A stretch of 60,000 nt of DNA, taken from the NCBI RefSeq assembly GCF_964204645.1, contig NC_134032.1, positions 8,552,275-8,612,274 of the forward strand, given 5' to 3'. Position numbers and translations under genes: made by a program. The notes below the pieces were generated by a model, which was not told the origin of the DNA, ran no database searches, and saw only the letters and a list, made by a program, of their open reading frames with translations. Below, piece after piece: positions 11,696-59,512 of this stretch (positions are counted from its first letter, which is position 1; every line of letters starts with the position of its first letter). The stretch comes from Tubulanus polymorphus (Eukaryota; Nemertea; Palaeonemertea; Tubulaniformes; Tubulanidae).

Positions 11696-11798
11696 TGCGC
11701 ATCCCGCCGTCGATCAACTCGGTGACGCCGAGTTCGCTGATCTCGTCGAACGAACGCGCGACGTTGACGTGCAAGGCCAACGGCTCCCCGAAACCGAA
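11696..11798 (+). CDS. Ig1 first-half exon, variant a (copy A)
   Basis: The exon follows TTATTTTCAG and is followed by the donor GTAAGT. It is 103 nt, entering in phase 1 and leaving in phase 2. It begins VRIPPSINSV and ends with the B-strand cysteine segment TLTCKANGSPKPK, the first half of an I-set Ig domain. The last lysine codon (AA|G) is completed by the exon at 14226, which carries the core tryptophan (IRW). It is one of two alternatives; intron 1 of copy B and the reverse-strand copy C hold orthologous exons of identical length. Confidence 0.9.
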
Positions 11799-14700
11799 GT
11801 AAGTACCCCCCCAGCGTCGGCGCTCTGTTACCAGTCTGCTGACGGCGTTTTTCGTAAATTGTATGTTTTCAGTGCGCATCCCGCCGTCGATCGTGTCGAA
11901 ACTAAAATCGGCGTTGTTGGCCAGCTCCGAAAAAGCTGTGTTCAAGTGCAACGCCACCGGTAGCCCGAGCCCGAAGTAAGTAGTGTTATGTTGTTCGCAT
12001 CGTCGCCCGCTCGCCGCTGCCGCTACTGCCACCAGATGGCATTTCTTCGTGACGGGTTCCGCTTTAGATGACCTCGGAAGCGTGCGCATACACACATACG
12101 CATACCACATAACGCTCGCTCTTTAGTCTCCTATACGTTCCCGACCGGTCCTGTTTGCGAATCGTTCACATCAAGGATGATAAGGCTTAGTACCGTGGTC
12201 GAATCTGTACAAGGGAAAAACAGACCTGACTACGGCTACTATTTGATGGTAGTTTCTACCTTTTTGAGACCTCAATTACTTCCAAAGTCAAAGTGGTTTC
12301 TAGTTCATATTTTTATCTTACTAATTTTCCTGTCAAGTGACTCCCTTAAGTGGTGAAAACTATGCTAAAATGGAAACACCGAGTAGTCAGGTCTGGAAGA
12401 ATGTGTCAGAGTCTCACGATGCCGTTAGGTTCAAATCCCAGCCAGCAAGTAATGTCCCAGAGTCTTATGACATTATGAGGTTGAAATCCCTGTGCGGGAG
12501 GAATTTCGCGTAGTCTCATGATGTCATAAGATGGAAATCCCAGCAAGAGAGGAATGTGACAAAAGTCACGATGCCATCCGTTCCCTGCGAGGGAATAATA
12601 GCCACGACACCGTCAGGTTCAAATTCCAGCAATGTGCCGGAGTTTCGTGATGCCATCATGGCGCAAATCCCTGCGAAGCGGTGAGTCTCATGATGCCATC
12701 TGTTACTAATCCCTGCAAGGGAGGGATGTAGCAGAGTCTCTGGACGTCAACAGTCTCACGATGCCGTCTATTCTATGCTGGGGAATGTGCCGTAGTCTCT
12801 TGACGTCGCAACGTTCGACTCCCTGCAGGGGAGGGATGTTACCGTCTCCCGATGTCATCTGGTTCCAATCCCTGTCAGTGAGACTGACATTAAGTGTAAC
12901 ATCGATAGTTTCAAATGTGTGCTAATGAAGAACAAGCAATCAGAATTTTTTGGAACCAACCACCGGTCGGGATGGGCAGCTTACAGCAGTAAACATGTAG
13001 ATCGATATTGAAATATTACTTACCGTATTTATTTTCTAAACGAAAAGACAAATAGCGAATTTTGTAATGCTATCTACATTATAAACCTATAACGTAGTTC
13101 GACAGGTATGAATTGAAATTTCTGCATTTTGGCGAAATGCGATGATAATATTCGAACAGCCGATACAGCTGAAAATATAGTACTCTTCTTTTAGCCATGG
13201 TAATGGGAACAATAATGTATGTATAGTTACGCATGCGACTATATCGCTTTGAAATATAGAAAAATGTACGAAATAGGTAATTTCTCGCTACGTGGAATTT
13301 TACCCACTCGACGGTATTTGATTTTCGTCAGATCGCAAAATTTCGATTGGCGTCAGTGTTCATTGCTGCCTCCTACGTGCTTCTCAACATAAGGCTTATT
13401 TACCCCTGATCCCACATCTCCCCGCGACCCGATAAATGTGCCGTCAATGTTGATTTTAAAAGATGTCGATGTTCAAAAACACTATACGACCAAAAAATAT
13501 TTGTAATTGATGGCAGTGCGATGACTGAATAAATGATTTCATAAGGAGATTTATAAAAGCATTCATAATGGTTTATTGCTGTCCGAAGACCCAAAAATTA
13601 ATTACGGTAGCATTCACACTTGGCGCTACGCCGCATAGTTTTGCTATCAGCACCATCATTGGCTGAAAATTTCCTGGGGAATTTCATTACAAAGTTTTGA
13701 GGAAGAGATTTTCACGATGAAACTTTTGACATCCGTGAATTTTGAAAATTTCGGATCGGAAACGGTTTTTCCGCTTGAGGGTTATAGAATTTGATAATTG
13801 ATAAGTCTGCCCCTCTTGGGAGGTCATGGGAACCCAGCTCTCCCAGAGGTCCATCATCTACTCACCCTCTTGAGAGGTTAGACTGAAGTCATGAATTATT
13901 AAATCCACCTCATCAAGATGTCAATAAGTCTACCTCCCTGAGAGACCCACCATCCATCCATCCATCCAGACTGAACCCTTTGAGAAAGGTTAGGAGTCAG
14001 TCTCCCTGTAAGTTTGGAAGTGTTGAGTTCCTCTGGCTGAGGGTCCCGAACTCCCCTACCCTGCCCTCCTGCTAGTAGAAAACACATCAAAAATAGCACC
14101 AAAATATAGATAAACTTATATAGCTTCGTTAATGCCTTTACAATACATTAACCCTGTGGTGGTTTAGGTCTACAGTTGAACCAAGTTGCTCACAGTTGCC
14201 CGCACGGTCGTCTTCTTTCTTTTAGGATCCGCTGGATGATTAGTTCCGGTAACAGCGAGTTCTCTCCGGTCACTCACATCCCAGGATTCTATGAATTCCC
14301 GATTAAACCGGATGGAACGCGCGATCACACGCAGTTGAAGGTGCGACCGAGTCGCAACAACGAGTTGGCCGCAAAGACCCCGCCGGAGAACTTTAAATAC
14401 GCGTGCTACGCCGAGAACGATTACGGAAAAACGGCGTCGAACAACGTGGTCGTCAATGAGAAATGTAAGTTCACGGCTGTCCTTTGCCAACACCCATCCC
14501 CCCACTTTATTTAGACTAGTGAAAACGTTAGTACAGTTACCCCCCTTCCTCTCTCCCCACTCTTCCCCTCCTTTTTTTACTAACAGTTGGTGGTTGATTA
14601 ATAATGAAAGTTTATATCCCCTGCTCTATTTCCACCCCCATGTTTTGTCATGATTTGACCTGCATCACAAGTCCCGCTACACGCCTTATGTGTGCGGATT

Positions 14701-17700
14701 CTTTAGGCTTATGTCGTCATTCAAAACTTGAAATTAGACCAGTTCTTAGATTTGAACCAATCTTCGGACATAAGCCGCAGCAACCGTACTACCAATAGGC
14801 CCTGGATTATTGTGGGTTTTTTTTTAAATAGAAAATATCGATGAACCCGGTCCTTGTCAATTTCTGTAATGTGGAAAAATTTTCAAACGAATTATTAATG
14901 TAAAATCTTGTGTCCTCCTGCAGACACCGGTGACTTCAGCCCGGAGAATTTGAAGGTGAAACCGACGTTGCAGGTACAGGAAGGCTTGACCACCGAATTG
15001 AAATGCAACCCTCCGGACTCGTTCCCGAAGCGAGCCATCATCTCGTGGCTGATCATCAAAGGATACGGAAAGGTCGACGCCAGCACCGTACGCGCGATCA
15101 CCACCGATACGAGGGTTATGATCGGTCCAAACGGTAAGAGTTCGATCTGAAAAAAGAAATATGTACGTTTATATCCCATTATAACTGACTACTTAATACC
15201 CCTAAAGTGCTGGAGATTTTTAAAGATTTCATCCCAGTTTGTCACTGCCTTATGACATTTACACCGAGGTACAGCATATTGTTAGTTATTGATATTTCGG
15301 TATGTTTGCTGCTGTCTTTCAAATTACTATTGGCATCAATACACTGCGATAAGGTGTACTAGCAAAGTTCATCAATTTATACACCGCATTGCGGTGTAGA
15401 TGCACTGAAAGGGTTTTCTTTTGAAGAATGGATTTACTTAATTTTCCATGATATCGTGATGGGGGATTAATCTAGGCGGACATTATGTTTAAGTGTTCTA
15501 AAATGATTTGATCGTACATAGGTAACCTGTTTTTCTCGCAAATTTTACCATCCGACGCGACCAAACCGGACTCGGATGAGACATACGTCTGTCAGTACAA
15601 TAACGCCGCGCAGGGTACTATCAAACAGGGCAGTCCGATTTCCATCAAAGTGAAACCAAGTAAGTCAGATCACGTCAAATTTGAAGATAGCAAATGTTCT
15701 ATTTTTTTTTCTTGCCGTATCCTTTTTGAACAACAAAATTTTGTTCTAAATACAGAAATCTATTTTGACAAAACGTCTAGATTTATTATGAGTTTTAGTC
15801 GTTTGTTTTCAAGCTAGAAATATTGAAATGTTCATTATTCTAGACTAGGGATCAATCGACGTGAGTTGAAGTTGATTTTATGGACAAATTCAGATCAGAC
15901 ATTTCCAAAATTTGTGCTTGAAAATTGCGGTTTTTATTTAGCATTTTGTTTCAAGACGTCCAAACTTTTCGATTGCAGATCCCAACATGCCAAACAAGCC
16001 TCCGGCGTTGATGGCCAATTCGCCGCCAGTTGTAAGCGCATTAGAACGCGATCAGATCGACCTGTATTGTATTTCAAGCGCCAAGTAAGTGCTTAAAAAG
16101 ATTCGCTTTAATAGTCCGGTCATTCAAGTCGAAATTAGTTCATTTCCGATTTCGCTATTCCATTAACTACTACGTTCCATTCGAAATGAAGTCACCTTTT
16201 CACTGTAGTACATCGACTAGCCTAACACACCGGGGCTAGAAAGTGAATTTCATATCTTTTATGAGGCTCGTTTCGCAATATATTCGTGCTCGCGAGTTCA
16301 TAATATTTGAAGTCGAGACCCAGTTTCGAAAATTTGAAAACTGGAAGTGAACCAATTTTGGCCGACTGTTCGGTCATCGTGTCGGTGGGATAGTATTTGT
16401 GTACCTGCTGATTGTGTAAATATTTTTGCGTATATTTTATTTTTTCAGGCCGGTCGCTACCGTTTCGTGGCGTCGCCTCAACGGCAAGCCGATGCCGTCG
16501 AATCATTCGTATTCGAACGGCAACGTTCACTTGTATTTGAAAAACGTCGCACCGAGTTACGCCGGCGAGTACCAGTGTACGGTGTCGAACTCGATGGGCA
16601 GTAAAACGTCCACAAGCCGCGTTGAGATCATGAGTAAGTTTTTATAGCAGAAAAAGCCGTCAAAATTTCTTTTCTTTAAATATTAGTCTCGGGGAATAGT
16701 CAGGGAATTTTGTAAGGAAAAAAAGAAGCTAAAAATCAGGGAAAAGTCGGGAAATTTGTTGAAATTGTTATATCCCGCGTATGAGTGAAATTAAACAGTT
16801 TCCGTCTCTGTCTTATATACTTGACTGTGTTGATTGATTGGATTCTTAGCAGATTAAGTGATAACAACTTGAATCTCTGGGAAAAGTCAAATAAGAGTGG
16901 CCACCCTGTCAAATAAAAAGCCAATGATTCACGCGGAAAAGATATCTTAAATTGAACAATGTTAAAATTTAGACGAAATTGTGATTGTAAGGCGAATATC
17001 CACTCCGTCGTAGAATTGAGTCGTCACTCTCATGAGAATATCAACGTAATGCCATTTGGAGCAATCCCATTCTATAGAGGCTGGCTCCGAAATGATCAAA
17101 ACAGGTTTTTGAGCCATTAGGGTGAATCGATGATTTTCATAATGTTGTGTTCAGAGCCACTCTTTCTCTAGTTGGTGACTCGACTGATTATTACAGATCA
17201 ATGAGTGTAATTACAAAAAGAAAGGTGAACGTACGTATTCTCCTGAAATCGTTCATTTTTCTTGCGATTTTACTTTCAGCTTTACCGAAGTTCATCAAGA
17301 AACCGGTAGATTCGACGTACATTATCGGCGGCACAGCTAAATTCGAATGTCAGGCGACCGGTAACCCGACCCCGACTACTGAATGGCTCGAAAATCTTGT
17401 CCCAGTTCCCCGTAAGTGAATGAAAATTTTTCAATGAGCTTATGGAAGTGGGGGGCCGTAACTTCAAATCTTAAACACGACTGGAAAATTTGGAGAGTAG
17501 CTTTTTACTCGTTTCGTTGGTATCGGCGATTCCCATTGGTCAGTTTGCAGACGTTTCTTTCATGAACCAATCAAAATGGCGTCTACTTATTACTTGTAAA
17601 TAAAAATCAATAAAAAAAAATCATCCAAGAATCAAGTTAATACTTCTCTAAAATCAAAAGATATGTGATTTAGTTAGTAACTTAGGCTGAACGAAAGTGG

Positions 17701-20700
17701 TACCTTGTTTCTCCGCAGTGGCCAGGTCATTTCTATGGACTTTCGCTTAAGCAAAGTCCATTGTATTATTGCTTATGAGACTTTTTTCTTTTGGTACAAA
17801 GTAACATTCGAACGAGAAAATATTGCACAAGAAAACTTTAATCTTTCAATGATTTTTATTCAGCGAAAAGTGATAAAAAACTGACGGTAAACGCGAACAC
17901 TTACGAATTACGTAACCTCATCCGCGGCGGGGAAGGCAGCGTGAACACTCCCGATATGAGAGTCGTCCAGTGTCGGGCTAAAAACATACACGGTAGCATC
18001 ATAGCGAACGGATTTATAAACGTCGTTTGTAAGTAAAATGATTTGTATGCTTATTTTCTGGAGTATTCCAGGGAAATTGTTTGAAACTACTCAGTGACGG
18101 CCTTTTTATTCATTAGAATATGATAAGTTATTAACCCTTTCAGTGCTGACCATTTAATACCCTATCCCTGGGGTGCCTTGTGGTTCAAATATGACCCCTG
18201 TTATTAGCCTGTCATAAATTTAAGAACTGTTGATGGTGGGGTGCAAGAGTTCTTAGCTGTGTTTACTGTAGCACCTGTGATACCTAAAAAGCCCAATGTT
18301 CATATATGAGCCTTGTCGGTTAGTAGAAAACTCACCAGGTGGCGCTCCATGAAATAAGGATAACCACTTCGACCTAAGGGGTCATATATGACCCATGGCC
18401 AGAACATAGCTTGTACGTTTTCAATCAAAAAATTTGGGGTCATGTATAGAACACTCGACATTTAAGTTTCTCTGACAATTTTTATGTACTCAAAACTAAT
18501 AATGAAGCAGCCTGGGGGTTCATATTTGACCCATCCCAAAAAACATGTCAATGTGAAAATATATCCACTGATATTTTTTTGTCATTAGGGACCCAGAAAA
18601 ACATAAATGTGCGGTTTGCCCTTTTGCCAGAAACATGTTTGGGCAACGCAGGGCTATAGTGCTGGAGATAATTTGAAAATTTATAAAAAATTCCACCGTA
18701 GTGCGTTGAATAACGGAATCATCTTGCAATAGAGATAAAAACTAATCACTATTTACGGCAAAACATCGCAGTGCGGTGTACTAGCAAAATCCATCTCCGA
18801 TTTATCGCACTGCGGTGTAGACGCACTGAAAGGGTAAATGATGACCCCAGTCTCAATAAGATTTCGATTAGTTAATGATGAAGTTACTAACAATGACCTT
18901 CTCGTTCTCGACATCTTCGACGATTCAACCAATTTATGATAAGTTACTTATAACGACTTCTTATTCTCGATAAATTCAGCAATAAATGCGGATAAATTTC
19001 GAACAGTTGCTAACCATAAGCTTCTCGTTCGTGATGAAAACGATACCGTTGGAAATTGTCTTAAAGTTTTCTTGTTGTCTCCGCAGTGCCGCTCGTGATG
19101 CGCGAGCCAAAACCGAGCGACGGCAAGAACGCGTCGGTGATGACGTTCAAATTCAAAGAGACCGTCATTCTGCCATGCAAAACGCAATCGGATCCGGCGA
19201 CGATTCCGCAAATAGAATGGCTGTTCAACGACGGCAAGATCAAATACGTCGAGAACCAAATCTGGCAGGACAACTCGGACAACTCGCTGCATATCAACTC
19301 GTGGAAGTACAACAAAGAGGAAGACCTACGCGGCGACTACACGTGCATCGCTCGGACTATAACACCCGTACAGGTAGTACGCGGTACCTATACGCTCGCG
19401 TTCGAAGGCGTGGCAGGTATGTGTTGTTGTGCATGCATGTGTTCTGTTAACCTTTCAAGCAGCGAGCAACCAGAGCTGCCGACTATTCCTGATTTTCAGT
19501 ATTTGTTTCGATTTTATAACGAGAAATACTGATTCGATTAGTTTGATGCGTGAAGGAATATTACAGATGTTACTGAAGGTCTTAGTGTTAATTACTGAGT
19601 GATTAATTTTCTTTCATATTTTAATGAAATGTTACTCGATTTGTTACTGACAGCGCTTTTCAGGGGTTGCCCGCCCTGCAATTGCCACAGTCAACTAAGA
19701 AGTCCTCATTAGACGTTCTAAACCGGTCGGTTAATCATTTTACATTATCTATTTTTTCAGCGGTCGTCGCAACTGGTGGCACGAGTTTCTGGTGGGTGGC
19801 GATCGTCATCGCTCTCATTCTCCTGTTGATCATCATTTTCCTCATCATTTGTCTGATCCGTCGTAACCGCGGAGAAACGTATCTCGGTAAGTACGGCGAA
19901 CACCGCTCCGATTTTTAAAGACTTTCAATATTCAGCCACCCTCTGATTGGTGAGGTCATATAAATTTTACCTGTAACCTTCCAAATTTTGGACATGGACA
20001 TGAACCGTAAACAAATGTATATTTTGGCCTTGTTTGAGTACAAAATAATTCTTTGAAAAAGATGTAATACAATAAAAGATAGAACTTTTGCCAAACAAGC
20101 TCCAGTTTTCAAGGTAAACCACTTTGCCCATGGGCAATTTATTAAAGTATGTAGGCGACTATATCCTGGAATTCAACACATCGAGATTAGAGCGACGATT
20201 TATGATCTATTCTCATCTGGCCTCCAATTATTCTCGATCTTCTCGGATTTCTTCAACTAGTGTCACCATCCAAATAAAAATAGATTTTATACAGGATATA
20301 TGATCAGACCATGAACTTTGGGGTTGAAATCCTCTGTTGACTATCAACACGATACCGGGTGATACACGGTATTCGCAAACCTTAGTTCGCACTTAGGTGA
20401 GAAAACCACTGACCCGGAAAACCTGGAAAACTCAGGTAATCAGATAAAATAAGAAACAAGAGGACTTCAAAGTCCTGAGATTCGAAGAAGCAAAGTCTGA
20501 TGTATAAATTATAAATTACATAAAAGAAAGGCAAATTATGAAAAGAAATTGATATTCCATTAGAGAAGTTTGTTTAAAAAAATTCAGTTTGTTTTCCGTT
20601 TGCGTTACGTGCATGGTAATGTTATTGTTTACATCTGACGTCATCGATAGAATGAGGCGCGCAGCTGAGCCTGCCTGTCAATCAACATAATTGGTTTACA

Positions 20701-22916
20701 CTAAAAATGCGTTTACTTGAAAAACTATATAGTGTATCAATCTGGAATTTTCGGCACAATATCCGATGCTAAATACCTTACTTTAAAGGTTTATTTGGTG
20801 TAAATCGGATCACAAATATTTCTAAAATTTTGTTCTTAACTTTTGAAGTGGAAGCCGGTGTCTGCATTAACGTGTGTATGGCTGTATGTACGGGTACTGG
20901 CTCAGCATTGATGGTGTATTTATGCGCGAGTAGATGTAATGATTTGTTTCAACCGCTAAATCGGCATTCAGTACACATGATTTAAAGAAATGATATTCAG
21001 AGTATTTGCATATATTTATCATGAGAATTATAATATTCTTGAGACGAGCGAATTACGTATGTGGACCTATTTCATTGAGGCGTATCACTCAATCTGAAAA
21101 AAAATCTTCCGATCCTGTCACGTGACTTCATGACTGCAACTTGACGATAGCTTAGGTTCTCATTCTTCGAACCAAAAAACCCTGATTTTTTTATTAAGTG
21201 TTATTGATCGCTTGTTTCAAAATCAATATGTGATTCATAAAGAATGAATGAATTGTTACATTTCAAACCAAGAACTTTCTGGGATTCACTCTGGGGAATT
21301 TTGTATTATAACATGGAAAAATCAGGGAAAACTCGGGGTATTTGTATATTGTCTCCCTGTCCGACTATTTGTAGAATTTGTATGTAATATTTGTATTCGC
21401 GATTTTTTTTGCAGTCGACGAAAACGAACGAAAACAAGGAAATGACCCGGAAAAAGAGATGAAGGACGCCGGTTTCCATGACTACGTACGACCGTAAGTA
21501 GCCGATTTACTCCTTTAACTACAGTCCGAAATAACGTTGAAAGTTTTCATATTCTTTGAAAATTTTTCCTTCTTCGGCGCTCCCTCTTTCTAACTCCATT
21601 CTTTCTCTTCTCCCCTTCTTTCTCCTTTTACCAATCCTTTTCTCTGCTCTCCCTCTCTCCTACTCTTTCCTTTGTCCATTCCTCTGTTTCCGCTCTTCTT
21701 GCTGCCTTCTCTCTGCTCTCTATATCTCCTCTACTGCCACTTAGCTCTCCTCTGTTCTCTCTCCTATCCCTTCTCATTTCATCATCTCTCCTTTTCCTCT
21801 CTGCTCTCCCTCTCTTATTCCTTCTCCTGTCTCTCCTCTCCTCTTTGTTCTCTCCACTCTAACCCATCTCTCTGACTATCATAGCTTCCGTATTCTCCGA
21901 GACGAGGTAGCGACGTCTTACGTTTAGTCGCCGCAGTAACACAGGTATTGTCGCTAGCGCGCATGACAAAAATGAACGAAAAATCGATCGCACAAATTTT
22001 TTAAGAAATATCGACTCAAGTTTTTGAATCGGCATACTTTTTGTTGTTTGGTTAACAAACACAAGTAGTTAAAATATTTCAAATGCTAGTTCTCTTTTTG
22101 ACGTCGCTACCTTGTCACATATGTCATATTCGTACACCTATATTATTACAGCGTATAGTTATATCAATATTACCGGTAGAGATTTTTTGCTCGAAAAAAG
22201 CACATCTTCCCTCATGGAAATTTTTCGGAATGATAAATCATTTTATCCTCATTATTAAGATTTGTAGTTATCATAATAAATAGATTGATAGGTGATCGTC
22301 CCTGAGACCTGACTACAGCAACCATTTGAGAGTAGTTTCTATTCTAGTTAAGAGCTCAACTACGCCCTGAAATATCAAAATACTCTCAAAGTCGAATTTC
22401 TGAAAGAAGGTTTTCTCAAGAATATTTTCTGGTTCATTTTCAAGTTTTGATTACAAATTGCTCTTATTAATGGTGAAAATATGATTAGGGATGTCAAGTA
22501 GCCCTGTCTGTCTGTTTTAGTTGCGCCATCTTGCGTTGCTATAAGTTAATTGCACAATTTCAGAAAAGAAATCTCAAATTCTGCCCTTTAATCAAGACAC
22601 ACGATTACAAAAACACGAAGACACACGATTTGTAACGCCATCTGGTGGCTTATGAAGAAAGCACGCGCAACTGCGATTAAAATTTCCGAGAATTTCTTTT
22701 CTATTCCGCAGGAATCAAGACCCGATTAAAGGAAGTCGCGCGTCGTTGAACAGCGACATAAAAATGGACAGCGACGACGACAACGACTCGATGGCCGAAT
22801 ACGGCGACATCGACACCGGCAAATTCAACGAGGACGGCTCGTTCATCGGACAGTACGGAAAAGATCGCAAGGGGGCGCCGCCGCCTTATTCAGCTAACGA
22901 CTCGAACGTCGTATAA
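11696..22916 (+). CDS. L1-family cell-adhesion protein, copy A (5 Ig + TM + FIGQY tail), spliced gene
   Basis: Exons: 11696-11798 or 11873-11975 (alternatives), 14226-14464, 14924-15133, 15522-15659, 15979-16084, 16449-16633, 17280-17411, 17864-18028, 19087-19416, 19761-19886, 21415-21493, 22712-22916. Every junction is AG/GT and keeps phase. They give 672 residues after the signal exon (about 702 in all). Numbered from the first Ig1 residue: Ig1 C26/W38/C95, Ig2 C142/W156/C208, Ig3 C261/W273/C309, Ig4 C351/W363/C408, Ig5 C457/W471/C513, membrane helix about 546-569, FIGQY 649-653. In the L1/neurofascin/neuroglian family FIGQY binds ankyrin, and the first four Ig domains fold into a horseshoe used in adhesion. 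Ig2 and the end of Ig4 resemble L1 Ig2 and Ig4 closely. Family members usually have six Ig plus four or five FnIII domains; here Ig6 and all FnIII are absent. The signal-peptide exon is inferred to lie just outside the window. Transcript evidence is lacking. Confidence 0.9.
11873..11975 (+). CDS. Ig1 first-half exon, variant b (copy A), alternative to variant a
   Basis: This second 103-nt exon lies only 74 nt downstream of variant a, with acceptor TGTTTTCAG and donor GTAAGT. It has the same phases (1 in, 2 out) and the same start VRIPPSI. The middle differs: KLKSALLASSEKAVFKCNAT against the NSVTPSSLISSNERATLTCKAN of variant a. Both end in GSP-x-PK. Splicing both together would shift the frame of the rest of the protein, so they can only be used one at a time. 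Intact splice sites and conserved Ig residues argue that it is functional in copy A. Confidence 0.85.
12210..12404. mobile_element. MITE with CAGACCTGACTAC inverted ends, copy 1
   Basis: Begins CAGACCTGACTAC and ends GTAGTCAGGTCTGG, about 190 bp, non-coding. A second diverged copy is at 22297-22508 (GAGACCTGACTACAG to CAAGTAGCCCTGTCTG), sharing the interior GTAGTTTCTA and GGTGAAAA words. Confidence 0.6.
12397..12895. repeat. about 50-bp minisatellite with tRNA B-box-like core, about 10 units
   Basis: Units follow the pattern GGAATGTG-cc-(A)GAGTCTC-(A)TGATGCCATC-AGGTTCAAATCCCTGC-AAGGGA, each diverged. Several units hold GGTTCAAATCC or GGTTCCAATCC, close to the RNA polymerase III B-box consensus GGTTCGANTCC. 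A single closely related unit with a perfect core (GGTTCGAATCC) is at 55662-55722. Confidence 0.65.
12896..14225. other. intron between Ig1 alternatives and Ig1 second half
   Basis: No additional Ig1 exon is visible. 13660-14010 aligns with copy B 59745-60000 (GAGGAAGAGATTTTCACGATGAAACTTT, GAGAGACCCACCATCCATCC). Within it short palindromic words such as CCTCTTGGGAGG and CTCTTGAGAGG recur at roughly 60-bp spacing. Confidence 0.5.
14226..14464 (+). CDS. Ig1 second-half exon (copy A)
   Basis: 239 nt after TTCTTTTAG, ending in T|GTAAGT. It starts with the G that completes the split Lys codon, then IRWMISSG with the core Trp. It ends with the F-strand motif YACYAENDYG holding the second Ig cysteine, then NNVVVNEK. 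It joins either Ig1a or Ig1b to make one complete Ig domain of roughly 114 residues. The C-D region (EFSPVTHIPGFYEFPIKPDG) is longer than usual. A damaged paralogue is on the reverse strand at 28448-28552. Confidence 0.9.
14924..15133 (+). CDS. Ig2 first-half exon (copy A)
   Basis: 210 nt after CTCCTGCAG, ending G|GTAAGA. It encodes TGDFSPENLKVKPTLQVQEG, then ELKCNPPDSFPKRAIISWL with the first cysteine and core Trp, and DTRVMIGPN. The C-N-P-P segment and the R-V-x-x-G-x-N-G turn continuing into the next exon are typical of Ig2 in the L1 family. Phase 1 at both ends. Confidence 0.9.
15195..15412. mobile_element. piggyBac-like MITE, copy 1 (intron of copy A)
   Basis: Left end ACCCCTAAAGTGCTGGAGAT, right end ACACCGCATTGCGGTGTAGATGCACTGAAAGGGTT. 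Same family as 18131-18838 and 26735-27031, whose ends CCCTTTCAGTGC / GCACTGAAAGGG next to TTAA are better preserved. Confidence 0.6.
15522..15659 (+). CDS. Ig2 second-half exon (copy A)
   Basis: 138 nt after TACATAG, ending A|GTAAGT. It encodes NLFFSQILPSDA, then DETYVCQYNNAAQGTIKQGS with the F-strand cysteine and PISIKVKP. The NL(Y/F)F start and the I-x-I-x-V-K end match L1-family Ig2. Phase 1 at both ends. Confidence 0.9.
15979..16084 (+). CDS. Ig3 first-half exon (copy A)
   Basis: 106 nt after GATTGCAG, ending AA|GTAAGT. It encodes a proline-rich inter-domain linker (PNMPNKPPALMANSPPVV) and then ALERDQIDLYCISSA with the first Ig3 cysteine. It leaves in phase 2, as the Ig1a/b exons do, so the Ig-half exon boundaries follow the same rule. 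Confidence 0.88.
16449..16633 (+). CDS. Ig3 second-half exon (copy A)
   Basis: 185 nt after TTTTTTCAG, ending A|GTAAGT. It encodes VATVSWRRLNGKPMP with the core Trp, a possible N-glycosylation sequon (NHS), LYLKNVAPSYAGEYQCTVSN with the D/A-G-x-Y-x-C motif, and SRVEIM. It is a textbook I-set second half. Confidence 0.92.
17280..17411 (+). CDS. Ig4 first-half exon (copy A)
   Basis: 132 nt after TTACTTTCAG, ending C|GTAAGT. It encodes LPKFIKKPVDSTYIIGGTAK and FECQATGNPTPTTEWLENL with the first cysteine and core Trp. G-x-x-x-x-x-x-C-x-A-x-G-x-P-x-P is the standard I-set signature. Phase 1 at both ends. Confidence 0.92.
17864..18028 (+). CDS. Ig4 second-half exon (copy A)
   Basis: 165 nt after TTTTATTCAG, ending T|GTAAGT. 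It encodes NTYELRNLIRGGEGSVNTPD, then MRVVQCRAKNIHGSIIANGF. V-x-Q-C-x-A-x-N-x-H-G-x-x-x-A-N is the characteristic end of L1-family Ig4. The exact F-strand tyrosine of most Ig domains is replaced by V-Q before the cysteine, as in L1. Confidence 0.9.
18129..18840. mobile_element. piggyBac-like non-autonomous element, copy 2 (intron of copy A)
   Basis: TTAA precedes CCCTTTCAGTGCTGACC at 18131, and the mirror-image GACGCACTGAAAGGGTAAA ends at about 18838. A TTAA-like target and C-C-C-T ends are piggyBac traits. About 700 bp with no transposase frame. It contains several ATATTTGACCC / ATATATGACCC words and the CACTGCGGTGTA hairpin. Confidence 0.65.
19087..19416 (+). CDS. Ig5 exon, whole domain in one exon (copy A)
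   Basis: 330 nt after TCTCCGCAG, ending G|GTATGT. Unlike Ig1 to Ig4 this domain is not split by an intron. It encodes TVILPCKTQSDPATIPQIEW (first cysteine and core Trp) and LRGDYTCIARTITPVQVVRG (F strand with the second cysteine), with a possible sequon NAS near its start. The next exon, 344 nt downstream, is already the membrane helix, so Ig6 and FnIII domains are missing from the gene. Confidence 0.9.
19761..19886 (+). CDS. transmembrane exon (copy A)
   Basis: 126 nt after ATTTTTTCAG, ending G|GTAAGT. A short Gly/Thr stalk (ATGGTS) leads into about 24 hydrophobic residues starting FWWVAIVIALILLL and ending ICLI, then the stop-transfer RRNRG. R-x-x-R-G-x-x-Y directly after the helix matches the juxtamembrane region of the L1 family, where FERM proteins can bind. 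Confidence 0.92.
19917..21414. other. large intron before cytoplasmic tail exon 1 (copy A)
   Basis: 1.5 kb of AT-rich intron. No exon or known element recognised. At 20448-20500 a GACTTCAAAGTC palindrome and a GCAAAGTC word resemble 17735-17760 (TGGACTTTCGCTTAAGCAAAGTCCA), so a short dispersed repeat may be present at both places. Confidence 0.4.
21415..21493 (+). CDS. cytoplasmic tail exon 1 (copy A)
   Basis: 79 nt after TTTTTGCAG, ending CC|GTAAGT. It encodes VDENERKQGNDPEKEMKDAG and FHDYVRP. The E-x-x-M-K-D-x-x-F-x-(D/E)-Y pattern is shared with L1-family tails. In vertebrates the alternative RSLE mini-exon lies in this part of the tail; I see no such exon here. Confidence 0.88.
21580..21880. 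repeat. 300-bp polypyrimidine (C/T) tract in the last intron
   Basis: Almost pure C and T on the + strand, rich in CTCTCC, TCTCC and CTTCTCC words. Such mirror-like pyrimidine tracts can form triplex structures and may affect splicing; here only the composition is certain. Confidence 0.7.
22297..22510. mobile_element. MITE with (C/G)AGACCTGACTAC end, copy 2
   Basis: Matches the element at 12210-12404 across most of its length. The right end is degraded. Confidence 0.5.
22712..22916 (+). CDS. final exon with ankyrin-binding FIGQY motif and stop (copy A)
   Basis: 205 nt after TATTCCGCAG, ending with TAA at 22914-22916. It contains an acidic run (MDSDDDNDSMAEYGDIDTG), then KFNEDGSFIGQYGKDRKG with FIGQY at 22842-22856. 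The tyrosine in FIGQY controls ankyrin binding by phosphorylation in the known family. The end, GAPPPYSANDSNVV, contains PPPY, which fits the PPxY consensus for WW domains. Confidence 0.95.
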
Positions 22917-28447: not shown

Positions 28448-28552
28448 ATTTCTCATTGACGACCACGTTGTTCAACGCCGCTTTTCCGTAATCGTTCTCG
28501 GCGTAGCACGCGTATTTAACGTTCTCCGGCGGATTCTTCGCGGCCAACGAGA
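28448..28552 (-). pseudogene. copy C: remnant of Ig1 second-half exon
   Basis: Reverse-strand translation LAAKNPPENVKYACYAENDY, then GKAALNNVVVNEK and donor T|GTAAGT, nearly identical to the 3' half of 14226-14464. The 5' half, including the core Trp and about 46 residues, is missing. The sequence upstream (CAGTTGAACC...GGTTTGCACGCATGG) resembles the intron that precedes the copy A exon, so an internal deletion has removed the acceptor and the first half. Copy C therefore cannot make a normal Ig1 here. Confidence 0.85.
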
Positions 28553-28632
28553 TAAGTACACACAGATACCATGCGTGCAAACCTATGGGAAACTCGGTTC
28601 AACTGTCGACTCGAACGACCAAAGGGTACTAC

Positions 28633-28735
28633 GTCGGTTTCTGAACGCCGCTGGCTTTGCACGTCAACGTGGCGCGTTCGTACGACGACACCAGGGAACT
28701 ATTCGACACCGAATCGATCGACTGTGGAATCCGTA
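28633..28735 (-). CDS. copy C: Ig1 first-half exon, variant a type
   Basis: A reverse-strand exon of exactly 103 nt after TGTTTTCAG and before the donor GTAGTA, with phases 1 and 2 as in copy A. It reads VRIPQSIDSVSNSSLVSSYE and then RATLTCKASGVQKPT. The open frame and Ig cysteine are intact, but the donor is weaker than GTAAGT and the following exon is damaged. It is probably part of a pseudogene, or of a gene with a different downstream partner. Confidence 0.75.
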
Positions 28736-29276
28736 CTGAAAACACAAATGAATGACCAACAGCTCGGTTTCGATTGAGCATATGAATTTTCTGGAATGTG
28801 ATTTTTTTTTTTTGGGGGGGGGGGGCATTCTATTTCAAGAAAAAAGGCACCTTTTACTGTGAAAAGGGAAACTTTCCTATTGAAAGCGTCACAGATCTTA
28901 GATATGAAGTGCCCGGGAACCTGAATAAATCATCTGAGCTTGAATTCATTTTCATTTTCCAAAACGTATCTAAATATGGAAAATCGTGACCCAGAATTTT
29001 GTACACTTACACGAAAGGCAAAAAAATATATATAGAGTATTCTATCGAGTACATAATTCTTTTTTTAGATAACGAAGTTCAGAGATCACGAGTGTTTCAA
29101 AAATAAACAAGATCCTCGGAAAATGGTCCTTAGCTTGGAACGGATATGGATCGGTCTTCAAGGTAGGTCTGGAACGGCCTAAAATGGAACGAACCAATTT
29201 GGATTGGACTTTTTGCTAGTGTGAACGCTTGGTCCGTAATAAAGTTGAACGGGCCAAATATAGACCCGTTCCAAAA
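28736..29276. other. intron 1 of copy C, left part
   Basis: Contains a T12-G13 homopolymer junction at about 28801-28826 and, near 29120-29276, several CGGAACGG/CCGTTCC words in both orientations (for example GAACGGGCC and ACCCGTTCC). These suggest a decayed DNA-transposon end that I cannot classify. Confidence 0.4.
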
Positions 29277-49079: not shown

Positions 49080-49729
49080 TGAATTTTACTTAAGTAGCTT
49101 TAGACCAGCATTTACAAATCTAGCGAGTCTAATTAATATATTGTTATTTACAGCATTAAGTATAGTTGTGACGTTTTCAAAAGTGTTAGGTCTATTTACA
49201 TAAAAAGGTGTTAGGAAAGCTCTTCGTATATTCTTTAGTTTGGAACATTCAAAAAGAAAATGGAATTCATCGCCGACTTTGTTAAGACTACAATATGTAC
49301 AAATACGTTCGTTTTTATCAATATTTACATAGCTATGTTTGTTGGCATCTAATTTACGGCTACCGATCCGAAATTTAGCGAGACTACATGAGGTGGTTTG
49401 GTACAACGGATAAATATTTTCATAATCATATTCAAGTTAAAAGATTCTATAATTTACGCTTTAATGTCACTATTTTGCAATTTTTCCCTCCATGTCTGAA
49501 TGTATCTATCTTTTAGAGATTGTTTTATGAAATTTATCGACCGCAGATCGCTTACCTGATCTTGCCACACATAGTTCAGCCCACAGTTTTGTATAATTTC
49601 CTTAATTTGGCAAATCCGATCTGATGCATATAAATCTTTTTTGTAAAAGTCGTACACAATATTATTCATTACTACATTCAGCTTTGACTTGTTTCTTCCG
49701 TCTGTCCGCAGCGCCATGGTGTGAGTCAT
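49080..49729 (-). pseudogene. non-LTR retrotransposon fragment, ORF2 C-terminus
   Basis: The upper - strand frame (49454-49729) reads INFIKQSLKDRYIQTWREKL, and the lower (49086-49406) reads LAKFRIGSRKLDANKHSYVN followed by ERICTYCSLNKVGDEFHFLF and ECSKL. Q-x-L-x-D-x-(Y/F)-x-Q-x-W and C-x-x-C-x-x-x-x-(V/I)-x-D-E-x-H-F-L-x-x-C are typical for LINE C-terminal regions in invertebrates. A frameshift separates the two frames. The 5' part is absent. Confidence 0.75.
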
Positions 49730-50600
49730 TGGGCGGTCTTATCAGAGTGTTATCAAAGTATGAAAGACTGCCTAACGACAAAAGGATATTATCGCACGGA
49801 TATAAAGACAGCGGTATAGTGTTTTGATACTGATTACTAGCGTTATAAACTCGGGATTGACGAATATCAACGTGGAAACTATTTTTCCGTCTCGGCCCGA
49901 GGTACGCGCAGTGAGTAGATGATGGTAATTCGATCATAACAAATAGTTAGACAGTAAGCTTTATTCACGGGGTCTTATTTCGTGAGATATCTTTGATCTT
50001 ACAGACAGTTAGGTTATTAAAATGGTTGCCTATTCATAAATTCCTTAATGATTGGCCTATCGTCTATAGGTTTCCCTCTTGGCGACTGGAGCTGGCATTT
50101 CTACTAGGCTGGGAATGGATATGGCATCCTTGCTGTATTATTGAAATTATCTATAACTCATTAGACTTAATGTCAATTAATTTTTTTCTGTATATAATGT
50201 TTCTATGTTGTACGTTATTTCAATGAATTCAGGAACAAAGAATATCATATCATATCAAAGTAATACCAGTCTATAAAACCGGGCCTGGGTTATTGGTAGT
50301 GAAAAGCAGTTCATTTTCATTGAAATTTGAAGAGACTTCTTAGGCTTCCGAATCTGTCAATGCCAACGCTGAATTGATTTAATGATGAGAAAAGTTGACA
50401 TGACTTTTATTGAAATGTCGAGGAGATTGATGCGCAATAACCAATTTCAACTAGCGATCCCAGTGGATTATTGCCAAATCCTCGCTTGCCACTGTAGCGT
50501 TGCCGGTATTCGGATGAAAAAAATTAATTTCGATAAAATTCAAATTTCCACGTGTAGGGAGTTGATGGGGGAACTGAGGAAAGTTTCCAGATGGATCAAT
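49730..50600. other. intergenic region before copy B
   Basis: No gene recognised; TCTATAAAACCGGG at 50269 resembles ACCAGTCTATGAAACCGGGG at 11160 in copy A. Confidence 0.35.
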
Positions 50601-54200: not shown

Positions 54201-54470
54201 GATGAACGTGATAAAAAAGAAAGAAATTGAGCAATGCATGGAGGGAATTAAAAATAGAAATATAGCTGCAAAGCAGCGACAACGGGTTTCTGCCTTGCTG
54301 GTTTAAATGTCGCACTGGGAAGCGCACAAAGATTTCACCAAATAATTCTTATCAGTTTTATAACATGCGACTATTTTGAAGGAGCGCGACACATATCCTG
54401 GGTGTGTGGATCCACAAGGGCTACCACGTAAAAAGTGCTGATGAACATTGTTTTGTGTTTGGTATAGTAT

Positions 54471-55265
54471 AGTGTAGTGTAGTGTAGTGTAGTGTAGTGT
54501 AGTGTAGTGTAGTGTAGTGTAGTGTAGTGTAGTGTAGTGTAGTGTAGTGTAGTGTAGTGTAGTGTAGTGTAGTGTAGTGTAGTGTAGTGTAGTGTAGTGT
54601 AGTGTAGTGTAGTGTAGTGTAGTGTAGTGTAGTGTAGTGTAGTGTAGTGTAGTGTAGTGTAGTGTAGTGTAGTGTAGTGTAGTGTAGTGTAGTGTAGTGT
54701 AGTGTAGTGTAGTGTAGTGTAGTGTAGTGTAGTGTAGTGTAGTGTAGTGTAGTGTAGTGTAGTGTAGTGTAGTGTAGTGTAGTGTAGTGTAGTGTAGTGT
54801 AGTGTAGTGTAGTGTAGTGTAGTGTAGTGTAGTGTAGTGTAGTGTAGTGTAGTGTAGTGTAGTGTAGTGTAGTGTAGTGTAGTGTAGTGTAGTGTAGTGT
54901 AGTGTAGTGTAGTGTAGTGTAGTGTAGTGTAGTGTAGTGTAGTGTAGTGTAGTGTAGTGTAGTGTAGTGTAGTGTAGTGTAGTGTAGTGTAGTGTAGTGT
55001 AGTGTAGTGTAGTGTAGTGTAGTGTAGTGTAGTGTAGTGTAGTGTAGTGTAGTGTAGTGTAGTGTAGTGTAGTGTAGTGTAGTGTAGTGTAGTGTAGTGT
55101 AGTGTAGTGTAGTGTAGTGTAGTGTAGTGTAGTGTAGTGTAGTGTAGTGTAGTGTAGTGTAGTGTAGTGTAGTGTAGTGTAGTGTAGTGTAGTGTAGTGT
55201 AGTGTAGTGTAGTGTAGTGTAGTGTAGTGTAGTGTAGTGTAGTGTAGTGTAGTGTAGTGTAGTGT
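54471..55265. repeat. (AGTGT)159 pentanucleotide array
   Basis: 795 bp of perfect AGTGT, framed by AGTAT variants at both ends. It gives a 309-codon spurious frame of repeated LHYTT on the - strand. Confidence 0.98.
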
Positions 55266-55346
55266 AGTATAGTAGATATTTATTACTCATCACAGGTGTG
55301 CAAAATGGTTTGATAGGAAATGGTTTGCATGAACTAATCGTACCCG

Positions 55347-56376: not shown

Positions 56377-58445
56377 TTATTGCTACGCCGGTGTTGCTAC
56401 GCTGCTATTTCGCTTTTGTTCGGCGATCGTCGCAAAATCGGAATATTCTCAAAAGCTATTGTACGCGCACCGCCGACCAAGTAGTCACGAAAACCCTCAC
56501 TGACCGCTGCGGACCATTTCTTTTAGGTCCGGTTACGCTGAATGGTTTCCATCTCTATAATTCGCTTATCTCAACTTATTGATTCGTCGCGTATCGGCGG
56601 GGGTTTGAAAATTAGTCACTATCGCCACCTATTGTCTAGCGTGTAGACCGCTCGTTCGACGACGACCCAGTTCCGCAGTCCGCGGATGAAATTGAATCGC
56701 GATTGTCGGAATCTAGATTGTTGACTTTTTGATCCGCGAATCGACTTCATTTGGCAGACAACTACGAATTCTGAATCAAAAATAGTTACAAGGGATTGGA
56801 AAAATCGTGTGTCGCATTTGACGAATTACTTAGTTAACGAATTCAATTTCGACTCGGGCGTCTGGAACTGGGTCCGTCACGTGTGCGTTTGCTTTGCATC
56901 TCGCTGCGTTTTTTTTGGTGACGCTTCGCTTGAAAAAATCTCTTAATCGTTTTTCTACGCTTTTACGTATATTTTTATAAGCAGCTTAGCCAGCTTCCTC
57001 CAATCGTAAGTAGTAGGCCGTTTGTCCACGTCCGTCGTTTATACAGCACCACCGCAAAGCTGATTGCTGTATTTATGTGTATTTTGTTTCATCGTCACGG
57101 CAACCACATTTTAGTTGACTAACTAACCCCCTGTCCATGTACACCGTTAACTGTTGCAACCAAATTTTCGTTCGATTTTCCAAGTTTGTTATTCCCGTAA
57201 AAAAAGGAATCTATTCCCGATGATAATTCGGGAGAGGCTCTAATTCGCAGAGAACAGCGCTGCTCGTTCCTAAAGAAAAATAAAAAGAAGATATTGTCGT
57301 TTTCAATAAAATTTTCAATTATTTTTGCGATGACCTCTAGTTTTTTTATGGGAATAGTTCGTTTTTTAGTGTCCTTTAGTTTTTTTATCAATCAAAGATT
57401 TCGGAGTTGAGACTTAATTAAATCCAGGTTTCGTTTATCGGGCGTTTCCGTATATCTCGCACGTAGCCAAAGTTTTTAGTCTAGACCCCGGAATCGGTCT
57501 TTACGAATAAAAGAAAATTTATTCGAAAAAAATTCACCGTTGTTTGTTTGTCCTTGAATGTTTAGACGGCCCTCGCACTTGCTAAAATACATTTGAAATA
57601 TCGTTTTCGAAAAAGTCTCAAAATTTCAAAGATTCAAAAAACAAATCGGGTCAGTGTTTTTCGTTAGATAAATGTTAGACGGTCGCGGAAAATTATCGTC
57701 AAATCCACTCACTTTTAGAATCGTAGAATTTTGGTTTCCATAGACAAGGGGCTGTCCAATATCAATTAGTCGACAAAAACCCACAATAAAAAAGAAAAAA
57801 AAAACAGTTTTTGAAAATGGCTCATAGATTTGAGTCGAAACGTCAAACTATCAGATAGTTTTTCTTTTTTATTGTGGGTTTTTGTCGACTCGTAGAATTT
57901 TGTTCCATCGCACCCAGAAAACAACTTTATCCCACTTTTCCTGCGATTTTCGTTGATTTTTTCGAATGTTGAACCGTGCGCGATAACGAGTATTCGATAT
58001 TCGAAAGTGTTGTGTAATTTTGCCACGTGGCCGTGTTCTATAGAACAGGGTCCCGAGTCCTGTTCCACAGTTCTCTGAGATATAAGTTTGAACGGTATAT
58101 GGAAAGAGTTTTAGTTATGATCGTTCTCACAAATTAGATACTGGTTTAGACGTCGAATGCCAGCGATATAACTGCGTGCGGAAAGTGGCCCACCCTTGTT
58201 TTTGTTCTCATTGAAAACTTGAAGTAACCGATTGCGATCAAACCAAAATCAAAATGTGGGTTCACATATTTCCGTGAAACTGGACCCGGCAGTTGAATCG
58301 ATCTCGGAACTGTGGAATGGTGCTGAACCTGCATAGGTATGAAAGTCTGCCTTTCAATAATGCTGACGCATTGAAAAAAAAATGTTTGAAGGGTAAATTT
58401 TAAACACTTGGACTGGGTTTCATAGATGTGGAAGCAAAACAGTCT
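56377..58445. repeat. intron block of copy B matching copy A 9070-10960
   Basis: See the copy A block. Differences include a MITE insertion at 57719-57905 absent from copy A, and a later local duplication of 56850-57400. Confidence 0.8.
57740..57905. mobile_element. MITE with AGTCGACAAAAACCCACAATAAAAAAG inverted ends
   Basis: AGTCGACAAAAACCCACAATAAAA at 57770 is inverted at 57870-57893 (TTTTATTGTGGGTTTTTGTCGACT). Flanks on both sides read TCGTAGAATTTTG. Copy A at 10425 has the uninterrupted sequence GTAGAATCGCACCCAG. Confidence 0.75.
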
Positions 58446-58504: not shown

Positions 58505-59056
58505 AAATCGACTCGGGCGTCTGGAACTGGGTCCGTCACGTGTGCGTTTGCTTTGCATCTCGCTGCGTTTTTTTTGGTGACGCTTCGCTTGAAAAAATCT
58601 CTTAATCGTTTTTCTACGCTTTTACGTATATTTTTATAAGCAGCTTAGCCAGCTTCCTCCAATCGTAAGTAGTAGGCCGTTTGTCCACGTCCGTCGTTTA
58701 TACAGCACCACCGCAAAGCTGATTGCTGTATTTATGTGTATTTTGTTTCATCGTCACGGCAACCACATTTTAGTTGACTAACTAACCCCCTGTCCATGTA
58801 CACCGTTAACTGTTGCAACCAAATTTTCGTTCGATTTTCCAAGTTTGTTATTCCCGTAAAAAAAGGAATCTATTCCCGATGATAATTCGGGAGAGGCTCT
58901 AATTCGCAGAGAACAGCGCTGCTCGTTCCTAAAGAAAAATAAAAAGAAGATATTGTCGTTTTCAATAAAATTTTCAATTATTTTTGCGATGACCTCTAGT
59001 TTTTTTATGGGAATAGTTCGTTTTTTAGTGTCCTTTAGTTTTTTTATCAATCAAAG
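58505..59056. repeat. about 550-bp identical repeat of 56848-57400
   Basis: From CGACTCGGGCGTCTGGAACT to TTTTTTATCAATCAAAG the two stretches show no difference by eye and are 1658 bases apart. Both contain the same 90-codon open frame on the - strand, which is not conserved in copy A and so is not a gene. Confidence 0.9.
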
Positions 59057-59222: not shown

Positions 59223-59325
59223 TGCGCATCCCGCCGTCGATCAACTCGGTGACGCCGAGTTCGCTGATCTCGTCGAGCGAACGCGCGACGTTGACGTGCA
59301 AGGCCAGCGGTTCCCCGAAACCAAA
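59223..59325 (+). CDS. copy B: Ig1 first-half exon, variant a
   Basis: 103 nt after TATTTCCAG, donor GTAAGT, phases 1 and 2. It differs from copy A's variant a at two residues (SSSERATLTCKASG against SSNERATLTCKANG). Splices in frame from 51234. The second half of Ig1 should lie just beyond the window end. Confidence 0.88.
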
Positions 59326-59375: not shown

Positions 59376-59450
59376 TGCGTATCCCGCCGTCGATCGTGTC
59401 GAACCTACAATCGGCGTTGTAAGCCAGCTCCGAAAAAGCTGTGTTCAAGT
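59376..59450 (+). pseudogene. copy B: dead Ig1 variant b exon
   Basis: Begins, after TTTCCAG, as VRIPPSIVSNLQSAL and then has TAA where copy A has TTG. About 48 bases covering the exon end and its donor (GTAAGT) are deleted, so the sequence jumps from TGCAACGCCA directly into intron sequence (TCGTCGCCCGC). It cannot be used as an exon. Confidence 0.9.
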
Positions 59451-59512
59451 GCAACGCCATCGTCGCCCGCCCGCCACCGCCGCAAGGTAGCGTTTCTTCG
59501 TAACGGGTTCCT

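Follow-up and report, generated by a model that had tools for sequence, protein, structure and literature searches.

A probable mutually exclusive exon pair for the first Ig domain of a shortened L1-family gene in the nemertean Tubulanus polymorphus

The gene P1 and its L1-family identity

The window (the whole stretch of DNA analysed here, 60,000 nucleotides) lies on contig C8 (16,677,571 bases) of the 267.8 Mb genome of the nemertean Tubulanus polymorphus. Its forward strand carries P1, a gene whose signal-peptide exon is located upstream of the window, at positions −331 to −241 (C8 about 8551944–8552034). A mini-exon of 36 nt, GGFPPEMYEKAE (1894–1929), ends at phase 1 and is followed by two alternative exons for the first part of Ig1, here called A and B, and by exon 2. 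Exons 3 and 4 (14924–15133 and 15522–15659) form Ig2, exons 5 and 6 (15979–16084 and 16449–16633) form Ig3, exons 7 and 8 (17280–17411 and 17864–18028) form Ig4, and exon 9 (19087–19416) encodes the fifth Ig domain. Exon 10 (19761–19886), which encodes the membrane span, is spliced directly to this fifth-Ig exon, and exons 11 and 12 (21415–21493 and 22712–22916, to the stop) supply the cytoplasmic tail with its FIGQYG motif (Pfam PF13882). All of these exons lie on the forward strand.

Built with exon A, the P1 model is identical over its whole length to the RefSeq protein P0001 (714 residues, 'neural cell adhesion molecule L1-like isoform X3', Tubulanus polymorphus), in which the mini-exon is also matched exactly; the B form of P1, used as the query, is 97% identical to it. 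RefSeq 'X' isoforms are predicted models. P0001 is one representative of a 90% cluster with 10 members, and the use of A is read from this representative; no other Tubulanus protein was found among the 38 proteins listed, a list limited by length and annotation. The mini-exon is in frame, no copy of it was found near the leader of the paralog P2, and it may be optional.

The product of P1 thus modelled has five Ig domains, a membrane span and a FIGQYG tail. The tail matches PF13882 with 62 bits, above the cut-off, and Ig1–Ig4 align with neurofascin (7ok5 and 3p3y; E 6e-41 and 1.6e-37), the best solved relatives. Together with the RefSeq name, these results bear out the L1-family assignment made in an earlier reading of the sequence alone. 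No fibronectin domain was found in P1, and PF00041 is absent from the domains listed for P0001. Typical members of the L1 family have six Ig domains and four or five fibronectin domains. Compared with L1, neuroglian and neurofascin, P1 therefore lacks one Ig domain and all fibronectin domains and, judged by its sequence, is an L1-family derivative rather than a typical L1.

The genome contains three FIGQY exons: one in P1, one in P2 and one in a longer L1 gene (contig C3), whose fibronectin exons were recognized by eye. The longer gene has a single exon for the first half of Ig1, with the same phases as A and B, followed by an intron of 84 nt; the split of Ig1 falls at the same place and in the same phase in P1 and in this gene.

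The two alternative exons

Exon A occupies positions 11696–11798 and exon B positions 11873–11975, with an intron of 74 nt (11799–11872) between them, and exon 2 (14226–14464), which follows B after an intron of 2250 nt and is common to both forms, supplies the rest of Ig1 from strand C. Both alternative exons are 103 nt long, enter in phase 1 and leave in phase 2. The sequence-only reading had given their coordinates, lengths, phases and spacing correctly to the base, and the start that it proposed for the next exon is indeed that of exon 2. Each exon is directly preceded by TTTTCAG and directly followed by GTAAGTA; exon B has an open frame and both of its splice sites are intact, with a pyrimidine tract that by eye is weaker than that of A.

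The products of exon A, VRIPPSINSVTPSSLISSNERATLTCKANGSPKPK, and exon B, VRIPPSIVSKLKSALLASSEKAVFKCNATGSPSPK, are identical at 20 of 35 residues (57%) and differ at the other 15. Exon A finds exon B by tblastn with an E value of 1.4e-9, so chance similarity can be ruled out. A tandem gene duplication mimicking an exon pair was also rejected, because the two exons, separated by 74 nt, are flanked by a single leader and a single exon 2. They are of similar length and the same phases, homologous and neighbouring, as exclusive exons are defined in an excerpt of a published survey (PMC3228551). In that survey, as excerpted, 90 of 16180 non-exclusive exons on the Drosophila X chromosome had the features of exclusive pairs (PMC3228551). 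A tblastn search found no other P1 exon duplicated within the gene; only the first Ig1 exon is present in two copies.

The Ig cysteine is kept in both exons, and the strand-C tryptophan, positioned from the neurofascin alignment, is encoded by exon 2 (KPK-IRW across the junction). Because this tryptophan lies beyond the alternative exons, A and B cover what we take to be strands A, A' and B and the B–C turn, and the proposal that they extend from strand A to strand C had to be shortened by one strand. By reading, each exon has one N-glycosylation motif (N29-G-S in A and N27-A-T in B); the two motifs are two residues apart, and the motif is absent from the A exon of P2. At their starts, A and B have 7 intron and 20 exon bases in common, a block that may reflect conversion between them.

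In a transcript that contains both A and B, the frame is shifted and a stop is encountered inside exon B, and in one that contains neither, a stop follows after four codons. Exactly one of the two is therefore needed for an open frame, which upholds the view that each transcript has to choose.

Paralogs, history and constraint on exon B

Seven L1-like copies without fibronectin domains, P1–P7, were found in tandem on both strands in the 180 kb examined around the window, from 11.7 to 70.2 kb in window coordinates and on C8 up to about 8662 kb. P1 and P2 have leader, Ig, membrane and tail exons; P2 lies at 51.1–70.2 kb, and its splice sites were checked in part. Its exon A (59223–59325, forward strand) is intact, and its exon B (59376–59458, forward strand) is a relic with an in-frame TAA whose 3' end and 5' splice site are deleted. 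P3 is fragmentary: on the minus strand (28449–28736) it has an A-type exon and part of exon 2. P4–P7, on the minus strand at 82–110 kb, match Ig1–Ig5 only, and tblastn found no membrane or tail exon in them at E 0.01. P5 lacks the beginning of exon A; in P6, exon A has a deletion of 2 nt, and exon B has lost its start and contains a stop; P7 has an exon 2 split between two frames. In P3, P4, P5 and P7, A occurs alone: tblastn revealed nothing resembling B next to it. Exon B is thus recognizable in three paralogs (P1, P2 and P6) and usable in P1 only, and since it is dead in P2 and P6 it must be dispensable at least there. Within about 120 kb, the locus offers a natural series for the birth and death of exclusive pairs: an intact pair in P1, a pair with one dead exon in P2, a pair with both exons damaged in P6, and A alone in P3, P4, P5 and P7.

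Two further similarities were observed around P2. Positions 14608–16741 of P1 and 60840–62972 of P2 (beyond the window) share 2.1 kb at 96% identity, whereas the neighbouring blocks are at 85–87%; the patch looks like gene conversion over exons 3 to 6. Just upstream of P2, 549 bases at 56849–57397 and 58508–59056 are 100% identical, which points either to a duplication of very recent date or to an effect of the assembly.

In the exon tree, which takes P5-A without five non-exon bases (the 5' end of P5-A is deleted, and its row in the A–B rate analysis includes these bases), the three B copies (P1, P2 and P6) cluster together on a long stem with support 100. It follows that the A/B duplication arose once, before these copies split. 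P1-A and P2-A form a clade with support 88, joined by P6-A at 62. In the gene-body tree, for which the exon ends of P4–P7 were set by hand from tblastn matches, P6 groups with P4 (93) and P5 (100) and not with P1 and P2. The conflict between the two trees implies that losses of B or recombination must have occurred; on these alignments, either P4 and P5 would have lost B or P6 would be a recombinant.

The B exons of P1 and P2 differ at five sites, of which four could be polarized by eye on the alignments (three by P6-B and one by the A copies), and all four changed on the P2 branch. The branch lengths since the split are about 0 for P1-B and about 0.065 for P2-B. This 4:0 relative-rate result would be in line with constraint on P1-B and is weak by itself. 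The 41 nucleotide changes between A and B cause 15 amino-acid changes, against a mean of 22.3 in a neutral simulation (P 0.00015), or 20.8 when the common 5' block is left out (P 0.001). Codons that differ only synonymously number six, with 3.1 expected (P 0.07), and the fact that no stop occurs is unremarkable (P 0.39). As dN (0.67) is higher than dS (0.44), the dN/dS ratio gives no proof of purifying selection on A and B. The picture suggested by the A/B alignment is one in which structural positions are fixed and others change freely, as a recognition surface would show, in an exon too short for proof.

Exon choice, rival readings and known systems

We consider it probable that A and B are a genuine mutually exclusive pair in a shortened, membrane-anchored L1-family gene, with B presumably used in transcripts as A is in P0001. 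A single leader, consisting of the signal-peptide exon and the mini-exon, would be joined to one of the two exons, which in turn would be joined to the shared exon 2. The outermost Ig domain would then differ between the two forms in strands A, A' and B, including the 15 divergent residues; everything from strand C through the membrane span to the ankyrin-binding tail would be the same in both. The result would be a two-way switch in that part of an L1-type protein which faces other cells, and the swap may alter binding.

How exclusion could be enforced was examined on the intron between the two exons. By eye, CTGAC is its best branch-point match; the A of this motif is intron nucleotide 44 and lies 30 nt from the 3' end. 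A steric mode of exclusion like that of alpha-tropomyosin and OGDH, in which the putative branch point for B would sit too near the 5' splice site of A, is possible, if somewhat doubtful. Excerpts of the published work give a minimum of about 50 nt between branch point and 5' splice site in human extracts (PMC6692369) and report that branch points 25–41 nt from the 5' splice site keep the OGDH exons exclusive (PMC7969005). Those two genes, as described in the same excerpts, likewise have two exons with the intron branch point near the upstream 5' splice site (PMC6692369, PMC7969005), whereas in P1 the whole intron is short and its branch point is a prediction from sequence. The shortest in a small sample of myosin introns (six resolved of ten tried) was 84 nt, the same length as in the longer L1 gene, which agrees with a steric bar. 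Against it, spans from GTAAGT to TTTTCAG of 70–74 nt occur 193 times in the genome and 104 times in the control, and the numbers are 727 and 487 for spans of 60–79 nt and 1119 and 560 for spans of 80–99 nt. Since such spans exceed the control, introns of 70–74 nt are probably spliced in this genome, which weakens the steric argument. The idea that the short intron hinders the joining of A to B is thus only weakly sustained: the spacing of the candidate branch point speaks for it, and the apparent splicing of introns of this size elsewhere in the genome speaks against it. RNA pairing across the intron was unsupported: the intron with its flanks, the region folded, gave a z score of −0.32, and 69 of 200 shuffles folded at least as well. 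Because introns of 70–74 nt are probably spliced and the fold is ordinary, we take as the main route a regulated choice combined with the removal of frameshifted double or empty products by nonsense-mediated decay, to which the branch point 44 nt from the A 5' splice site may add steric help.

On the minus strand of contig C4 (4125126–4126944), positions 112–152 of the myosin head model are matched by four neighbouring stretches, which probably form an alternative-exon array within a muscle myosin gene.

Two other readings of the pair itself have to be weighed. B could be an undecayed relic of a pair that was once used, with only A spliced today and P1 as the last copy in which B looks intact. 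Its decay in P2 and P6, the lack of any B found near A in the other four copies, the use of A in the single RefSeq protein seen and a dN/dS between A and B that is not below 1 would all fit such a relic. In P1-B, nevertheless, the frame, the two splice sites and the Ig cysteine are all intact, and its branch has remained at about zero since it separated from P2-B, which gathered changes and a deletion over the same time; we therefore regard a relic as unlikely. It is highly improbable that each of the two exons has a promoter or leader of its own and serves as an alternative first coding exon. Just upstream of A there is indeed a hydrophobic open frame that contains an ATG, but it is not in the Ig frame and the ATG is missing at the matching place in P2, so an alternative promoter for A was rejected; moreover, RefSeq joins a leader 11 kb upstream to A, and strong 3' splice sites precede both exons.

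A genuine exclusive pair in P1 would have several known counterparts. In FGFR2, two mutually exclusive exons, IIIb and IIIc, each supply half of an Ig domain, and the choice between them changes binding. FGFR2 is a receptor kinase and the half concerned is the second of Ig3, whereas P1 encodes an L1-type adhesion protein and has alternatives for the first part of Ig1. Exons 4 and 6 of arthropod Dscam1 are likewise exclusive exons for part of an Ig domain in a neuronal adhesion protein, each of them encoding half of such a domain. According to excerpts of the literature, skipping of Dscam exon 4 leaves a partial Ig2 (PMC4835542), and each Dscam cluster contains 12 to 48 variants, with competing RNA structures (PMC11802352). 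P1 differs in having two exons and no large array, in varying Ig1 rather than Ig2 or Ig3, in belonging to the L1 family, and in that its A–B intron with flanks has no notable fold.

The closest parallel in logic to the P1 array, as far as an excerpt of PMC4835542 describes it, is the chelicerate sDscam, a shortened adhesion gene that has lost Ig and fibronectin domains, has been multiplied and has a variable N-terminal Ig domain. In sDscam, whole Ig domains are varied through 5' cassettes with their own promoters (PMC4835542, same excerpt), whereas P1 varies half a domain behind one leader and most copies in its array are broken or incomplete. Searches of open-access papers turned up no description of an exclusive Ig1 exon choice in an L1-family gene. 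If B is used, the L1 family would join Dscam in the exclusive splicing of part of the outermost Ig domain, with a case from a phylum in which little is known about neuronal recognition. A broader reading, rather unlikely at present, is that this locus is the L1-family counterpart of shortened Dscam, in which fibronectin loss, tandem multiplication and a choice of half of Ig1 would let a nemertean diversify the outermost face of an ankyrin-anchored recognition protein. Should it be true, both the acquisition of an exclusive pair and its loss would be on record in the remaining copies of a single locus.

Two other features of the window lie on the minus strand. A long tandem repeat at 54306–55286 reads ...HYTTLHYTTL... 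in three overlapping open frames, and open frames at 49089–49738 resemble, by eye, the end of a retrotransposon polyprotein.
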